In this document: positions 33,146 through 33,224 of the stretch, piece by piece
Layout of the letters: every line of letters begins with the position of its first letter
Numbering within the stretch: the stretch's first letter is position 1
Origin: Oscillospiraceae bacterium
GTDB taxonomy: Bacteria > Bacillota > Clostridia > Oscillospirales > Ruminococcaceae
Assembly: GCA_017460835.1 (NCBI GenBank)
Contig: JAFUAD010000094.1
Location: 1-36,392 of the forward strand
Direction: 5' to 3'
Length of the DNA stretch: 36,392 bases
Notes under the pieces: generated by a model
The model's input: only the letters and a program-made list of their open reading frames with translations
What the model was told of the DNA's origin: nothing
Databases searched by the model: none
Position numbers and translations under genes: made by a program

Positions 33146-33224
33146 TCACCTTTTGCGGAATCAAACTGACATTTTGCGGAAAGAAGCATTCCGCAAAATG
33201 TCATCTTTTTTCGGCAGAATGTCA
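33146..33224. promoter_or_regulatory. Symmetric array of four 15-bp regulator sites
   Basis: Four copies of TTCCGCAAAATGTCA: site 1 at 33146-33160 (reverse, 13/15), site 2 at 33167-33181 (reverse, 15/15), site 3 at 33189-33203 (forward, 15/15), site 4 at 33210-33224 (forward, 13/15). Start-to-start steps are 21, 22 and 21 bp, so all lie on one helix face, with dyad symmetry about 33185. The array fills exactly the gap between the two divergent -35 boxes (33140-33145 and 33225-33230). Direct-repeat sites spaced 21 bp beside -35 are the classic AraC-family activator arrangement. Confidence 0.8.

Follow-up and report, generated by a model that had tools for sequence, protein, structure and literature searches.

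A four-site array that probably forms two head-to-head AraC/XylR-type operators between divergent dockerin-bearing pectate lyase genes

The locus and its question

Two divergent pectate lyase genes of an Oscillospiraceae bacterium are separated by a region that holds four copies of one 15-bp sequence, which raises the question of which regulator binds there and how it could act on two promoters. The stretch analysed (hereafter the window) is 36,392 nt long, and the genome searched along with it is a draft of 2.98 Mb that is 88% complete. On the plus strand, 33296..35977 encodes an 893-aa protein with a pectate lyase domain (PF00544), a ricin-type lectin domain and a type I dockerin (the plus lyase). 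On the minus strand, 30150..33053 encodes a 967-aa pectate-lyase-like enzyme that also has a type I dockerin (the minus lyase), with a partial match to the NCBIfam PelZ model (E 1e-23) that lies under the cut-off of that model. A 1008-aa open frame on the minus strand (33161-36187) is antisense to the entire plus lyase gene, starting past the far end of the gene and ending within the array, and is probably an artefact of composition. Contig C58 of the same draft (G000:C58) is a 99.99% duplicate of window positions 23009-30976 and reflects assembly redundancy.

Geometry and rarity of the array

The array occupies 33146-33224 and consists of four 15-bp sites in the order reverse-reverse-forward-forward, with start-to-start steps of 21, 22 and 21 bp. 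R-outer (33146..33160, minus strand, TTCCGCAAAAGGTGA, two mismatches) is proximal to the promoter of the minus gene and F-outer (33210..33224, plus strand, TTCGGCAGAATGTCA, two mismatches) to that of the plus gene. Between them lie R-inner (33167..33181, minus strand) and F-inner (33189..33203, plus strand), both reading TTCCGCAAAATGTCA without mismatch, so that the inner half-sites match at 15/15 each and stand inverted, 22 bp apart. Each end of the array abuts a −35 hexamer, one on the plus side and one on the minus side. This confirms from the sequence what a preliminary description of the locus had reported, namely two exact and two 13/15 copies in this order and at these steps, spanning the distance between the −35 boxes.

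The same description had held that such phasing is hard to obtain by chance. Eight matches with at most three mismatches were found in the window against 1.23 expected (100 shuffles, largest count 5), and four of the eight fall inside the 79-bp array. In the genome-wide search for 21-bp pairs that had been proposed there, the degenerate tandem pair (at most three mismatches) gave two hits in the draft, both in the array, and none with controls; the tandem pair is thus unique to the array in this draft.

Single sites with at most two mismatches occur at 24 places in the genome versus 2 for a reversed control, four of the 24 being the array itself. Ten of the 20 outside places lie within an open frame of at least 600 nt and six overlap an opposite-strand TTGACA, with one place counted in both groups and five in neither. 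A single-site regulon, considered on the strength of the 24 versus 2 ratio, was rejected, given that 15 of the 20 outside sites are in long frames or on TTGACA. No copy at 21 bp was present among the three best neighbours of each outside site, and we claim no wider regulon in the draft genome because these sites have no 21-bp partner among the neighbours shown.

Promoters on both sides

The promoter of the plus gene (33225..33253) reads TTGAAA (33225-33230), 17 bp, TATAAT (33248-33253) and matches 11 of 12 consensus positions in a promoter scan. That of the minus gene (33117..33145, minus strand), TTGCAT (33145-33140), 17 bp, TAGACT (33122-33117), is weak; it was read by eye and is not listed by the promoter scan of the window. 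The register of the array relative to the −35 box is the same for both. A direct half-site repeat at about two helical turns (21 bp), as in an AraC/XylR-type operator, is found here, and the proximal half-site stands next to −35 (class II position) in the window as well as in related loci. Within the half-site we take CCGCA to be the A-box and GTCA the B-box, both named by analogy.

The regulator P0003 and its promoter

The activator that we propose for the array, P0003, is encoded next to the minus lyase at 27818..30049 on the minus strand (743 aa from the ATG at 30049). It combines a LacI-type sugar sensor, a degenerate middle part and a C-terminal AraC-type double helix-turn-helix (HTH). 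The N-terminal periplasmic-binding-like sensor matches PF13377 (E 2e-23) and PF00532 (E 8e-9), and a LacI-type sensor domain is present in all 21 members of relative set A2; the double HTH matches PF12833 (E 3e-18). The extra middle part is about 375 aa long; GGDEF was matched in 6 of 21 relatives with E values up to 0.1, and no GGDEF match was obtained in the middle part of P0003 itself. In a PDB search the P0003 family profile matched the XylR structure 4fe4 with E 1e-16 (the XylR entries being 4fe4 and 4fe7), the best matches of the sensor were LacI-family repressors, and scores above that of XylR were reached by two AraC-type response-regulator domains.

A promoter of perfect consensus (TTGACA, 17 bp, TATAAT; 30078..30106, minus strand) was listed by the promoter scan upstream of the P0003 gene, and the same is seen by eye in the closest relative. 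The longest P0003 frame, 763 aa, begins with a TTG (30109) that lies upstream of the −35 box of this promoter, and the first in-frame ATG downstream of the promoter is at 30049, which is probably the real start. Between the minus lyase gene and the activator gene lies a terminator-like hairpin (30107..30149, minus strand; −28.5 kcal/mol, z −5.0 by folding), which is not listed by a pattern scan for terminators. An operon of the minus lyase gene and P0003, suggested by their 40-bp gap, was rejected since the gap holds the terminator-like hairpin and the perfect promoter, as it does, by eye, in the closest relative.

Conservation of the array in relatives

With the regulator family as query, a scan of genome contigs found 188 stretches encoding a relative, of which the best 79 were taken as loci. 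The closest relative among these 79 is L149 (MAG Ruminococcus sp. RGIG5027), in which the homologues of the plus lyase, the minus lyase and P0003 follow the gene order of the window. The plus lyase homologue is 78% identical over 542 aa and is cut by the contig end. The minus lyase homologue is 72% identical over 759 aa, aligned only from residue 231 of the minus lyase onward; it is without the first 230 residues and hence without the signal region. The P0003 homologue is 49% identical over the aligned part. The intergenic region of L149 carries sites at 1727, 1748, 1770 and 1791, with steps of 21, 22 and 21 bp and an ungapped alignment over 79 bp, and identity to the window is 43/60 at site bases versus 7/19 at spacer bases. 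Matches to the motif are 9, 13, 11 and 12 of 15 in that order. As the L149 orientation is opposite, 1791-1805 corresponds to R-outer, 1770-1784 to R-inner, 1748-1762 to F-inner and 1727-1741 to F-outer, the weakest site there (9/15). The array is flanked by TTGAAT-17-TATAAT on the minus lyase side and, by eye, by TTTAAT with 16 bp to TATAAT on the plus lyase side; upstream of the regulator an inverted repeat with a T-run and TTGACA-17-TATAAT were seen by eye. The 5′ loss of the minus lyase homologue (1877-4210) and one in-frame stop in the regulator frame (4335-6554) of L149 represent either sequencing error or decay.

The full four-site layout is thus kept, imperfectly, in one relative only. 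In L094, both enzymes are kept (42% and 54%) and the regulator comes from a different clade (29%); the compact four-site array was not found there, and a 21-bp pair (11/15) lies on the side of the minus lyase homologue. The alignment in relatives proposed in the preliminary description therefore gives a divided answer, with the array kept in L149 and not in L094, though the divergent gene pair is kept in the latter. Two further P0003 relatives, L150 (regulator 44%) and L130 (the contig of L173; 43% over 607 residues), have the regulator divergent from a plus lyase homologue (62% and 59%, respectively) whose promoter carries a tandem 21-bp site. In Ruminococcus flavefaciens Y1, YAD2003, ATCC 19208 and SAb67 (regulators 38-39%), a like site is carried by the promoter that diverges from the regulator gene. 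A search for the central dyad in 396 family genomes had just two results, the window itself and a match within a coding region, and no pair with at most three mismatches per site was found in 15 loci fetched via enzyme homologues. A candidate second compact array in G372 sits inside a coding region and was rejected as chance. The contigs of L150 and L205, titled as Prevotella and Alistipes MAGs, carry P0003-family (Ruminococcus) regulators, that of L150 also a dockerin lyase, and are probably misnamed or mixed bins.

A 21-bp rule near P0003-type regulators

Repeats upstream of −35 were counted at promoter-like sites under a loose rule (11/15 match, spacings 12-40) in 33 genus loci, 18 of them surrounding regulators with 33-40% identity to P0003 and 15 surrounding lyase homologues. 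Spacing 21 was found at 22 of 1415 promoters versus 0-5 at each other spacing. The corresponding counts were 3 versus 0-6 in 20 loci of more distant regulators or other AraC genes, and 0 versus 0-3 in 20 control loci.

A strict rule (TTG, 17 bp, TAnnnT, pair similarity and a GTCAT-like B-box; spacings 16-44) gave a sharper picture. The B-box and the register are built into this rule; they shape the list and give spacing 21 no advantage over the others. Around 19 regulators there were 25 promoters at spacing 21, in 13 of the 19 loci, versus 0-3 at each of the 28 other spacings, and 15 lyase loci gave 5 in 4 loci versus 0. The 20 loci of more distant regulators and of the other AraC genes of the draft gave 0 at spacing 21 and no excess, and 20 loci of other genera gave a weak excess (3 in 3 loci versus 0-1), with spacing 30 tying with 21 at 12/15. 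In a second set of 48 loci, which remained after 31 of the 79 had been dropped as overlapping earlier ones, 22 promoters in 20 loci had spacing 21 versus 0-4 at other spacings. These sets include near-copies (L035 and L071; L159, L164 and L165, which have one site in common). No promoter passed the strict rule in 6 of the 19 genus loci and 28 of the 48 later loci, and window-like pairs are present in L056 and L057 that the promoter rule misses. With the offset left free within 4 bases, the register just before −35 recurs at many enzyme promoters. Taken together with the L149 array, these 21-bp pairs near P0003 relatives support the earlier view of an AraC-type activator on direct repeats by the −35 box.

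Nine related targets were inspected for domains. Dockerin matches are clearly above the curated cut-off in eight and just above it in the ninth (L166), and the other domains are deacetylase (two targets), GH43 (two), GH26, DUF6055, pectate lyase and beta-helix. The tandem site of L065, L071 and L035 precedes the gene for the regulator, which suggests that these regulators are autoregulated; P0003, with its consensus promoter, differs from them in this.

Recognition helices and half-sites vary together

Close relatives of P0003 differ little in the second HTH helix (mostly HFMRQF) or in the B-box, and changes in the first helix go along with changes in the A-box; regulators at a greater distance show variation in both. 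The comparison of helices and sites contained 42 rows (49 minus the window row and 6 repeats), in which each site was given to the nearest regulator found. Where the fourth residue of the first helix is Y (15 rows, including two from L225 that lie outside the close P0003 relatives), sites scored 10-16 of 20 against the first ten bases of the window half-site, versus 5-13 where it is H (27 rows). The Y sites are closer to the window half-site than the H sites (Mann-Whitney p 1.5e-7, uncorrected for shared descent). A Mantel test over 35 domains, window included, gave r 0.61, with 0 of 5000 permutations reaching it and likewise uncorrected for shared descent. On this pattern, the window half-sites fall with the helix class of P0003, and the cognate activator is likely P0003 rather than the hybrid encoded at 21940.

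Proposed mechanism and alternative readings

Taking these results together, we consider it highly probable that the array comprises two head-to-head AraC/XylR-type operators from which P0003, with its inducer, would activate both lyase genes. P0003 would be made from its own consensus promoter, and its sensor would respond to an inducer; judged from the targets alone, this is probably a sugar released from pectin. Each operator would be a direct repeat of the 15-bp half-site at 21 bp, or two helical turns, with its proximal copy abutting −35. One P0003 dimer may occupy each tandem pair, and the proximal subunit, its second HTH placed beside −35, may recruit RNA polymerase, so that both dockerin-bearing pectate lyases would be switched on together. 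P0003 binding, dimer stoichiometry, the inducer, and activation over repression are what we infer from sequence. The preliminary description had one regulator bound in the middle switch both genes; the joint switch-on is retained as part of our model, and two back-to-back tandem sites, one per promoter, describe the array better.

A variant of this model, to which we give a small chance, is a two-state switch, in which a ligand-free dimer on the inner sites would span the centre, leave the outer sites beside each −35 empty and so keep both promoters off, and inducer would shift the subunits to the direct-repeat pairs. The flip would resemble that of AraC, in a symmetric form that needs no loop site far away, and the 22-bp centre would be selected in its own right. 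Such selection fits the exact preservation of the 22-bp centre in L149 and the better match of the inner than of the outer sites in the window.

It is very improbable that the array serves as operator for the other hybrid, P0002 (21940-23634), or for an unlinked regulator. P0002 does pair a LacI-type sensor with an AraC-type domain and is located in the window, and a P0002-like remnant lies in L130 (7761-7987, minus strand), about 4.5 kb from the tandem site of that locus. Its recognition helices, however, differ by eye from the THFMRQF class, half-site type tracks P0003-like helices across loci, and the P0002 matches in the seven loci compared, which were gathered with P0003 as query, are P0003-type or other AraC-type genes, the L130 remnant excepted. 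Both hybrids had been named earlier as candidate binders; of the two, support was obtained for the one at 27818, P0003, and for the one at 21940, which has other recognition helices, no link to the array was found in the loci gathered with P0003. The L130 remnant aligns to P0002 over 42 aa at 74% and then 36 aa at 39%, outside same-strand frames of 600 nt.

Repression, in which the bound regulator would block both promoters until inducer lifts the block, as with ordinary LacI-type repressors, seems very improbable to us. It would suit a LacI-type sensor whose best matches are LacI-family repressors and sites located directly at promoters. Nevertheless, the sites end just before −35 and leave −35, −10 and the start uncovered, the free-offset comparison shows the same register at many enzyme promoters, and the DNA-binding domain of P0003 is AraC-type, a family whose known members mostly activate.

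That the central inverted repeat is instead a hairpin, for example a bidirectional terminator, can be dismissed almost with certainty: the inner half-sites do form a perfect 15-bp stem with a 7-base loop and a T-rich tail, listed on both strands by the terminator scan, but the repeat precedes both promoters in a divergent intergenic region, the outer copies and the 21-bp rule elsewhere would be left unexplained, and the reading is largely refuted by L149, where the two inner sites disagree at 4 of 15 positions, so that pairing is lost and sites and steps are kept.

Relation to known systems

XylR consists of a LacI-type sensor and an AraC-type DNA-binding domain. P0003 has the same two end domains as E. 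coli XylR, and its DNA-binding domain is 35% identical to that of XylR over 80 aa. The xylA/xylF region of E. coli likewise consists of divergent sugar genes whose promoters are each preceded by a 21-bp repeat: our scan found such repeats at both (11/15 and 10/15), the xylA pair abutting TTGAGC, in a list that also contains 19- and 25-bp repeats at 10-11/15. The inner half-site starts are about 139 bp apart in xylA/xylF versus 22 bp in the array, which looks like an xylA/xylF-type arrangement compressed until both pairs meet. The proteins differ as well, P0003 being 743 aa long and having an extended middle part, whereas in XylR the sensor is joined directly to the DNA-binding domain (about 390 aa; 392 in the 4fe4 chain). 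We take P0003 to work like XylR and do not file it as an XylR orthologue because of the long middle part. The targets are dockerin-bearing lyases for P0003 and isomerase and uptake genes for E. coli XylR.

It is well known that araI1-araI2 of E. coli is a 21-bp repeat next to −35, that the proximal site of a class II activator ends at −35 and brings the protein into contact with polymerase, and that the AraC sensor fold differs from the LacI type. The two-turn spacing and the proximal site ending at −35 in the window would fit an AraC-type activator touching polymerase. AraC has a single pair by the promoter plus O2, a looping site far away, in contrast to the two back-to-back pairs and the LacI-type sensor found here. 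AraC with inducer is described as placing its subunits on the adjacent half-sites I1 and I2, with transcription activated (PMC4486848).

As far as we have seen, the activator and its operator are of a known kind, and the regulon and the compact two-promoter layout are new, as are the 21-bp rule with helix-matched half-sites in the P0003-type group and the mirror layout kept in L149. Among titles and abstract openings, a range outside which most subscription papers fall, we found none on control of Ruminococcus cellulosomal enzymes via such hybrids, and the parts consulted of PMC3672088, PMC4486848, PMC2893085 and PMC10989795 contain no description of P0003-type regulators that we found. The rule is readable: in these bacteria, a 21-bp repeat abutting −35 often shows which promoters belong to a given P0003-type regulator, and half-site sequence tracks the first recognition helix of that regulator. 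Regulon prediction and inducer finding thereby become directly testable, as do sugar-responsive promoters for fibre degraders of the rumen and gut.

A layout akin to that of the window is seen in L067 and L068, where two divergent tandem-21 promoters lie near one (paralogous) regulator. They differ from the window in inner starts 38 and 37 bp apart, in another half-site sequence, and in that one of the two arms points into a short stretch where no gene is evident. This conserved stretch (L068 5700-5800, plus strand; L067 8990-9063, minus strand), found in 2 of 30 genus genomes, has GAAGTTC/GAACTTC arms and CCTCCCCC with a T-run, and heads to the 3′ end of the regulator gene. Its product may be a small RNA under activator control, with complementarity to ribosome-binding sites of the GGGGGA type.
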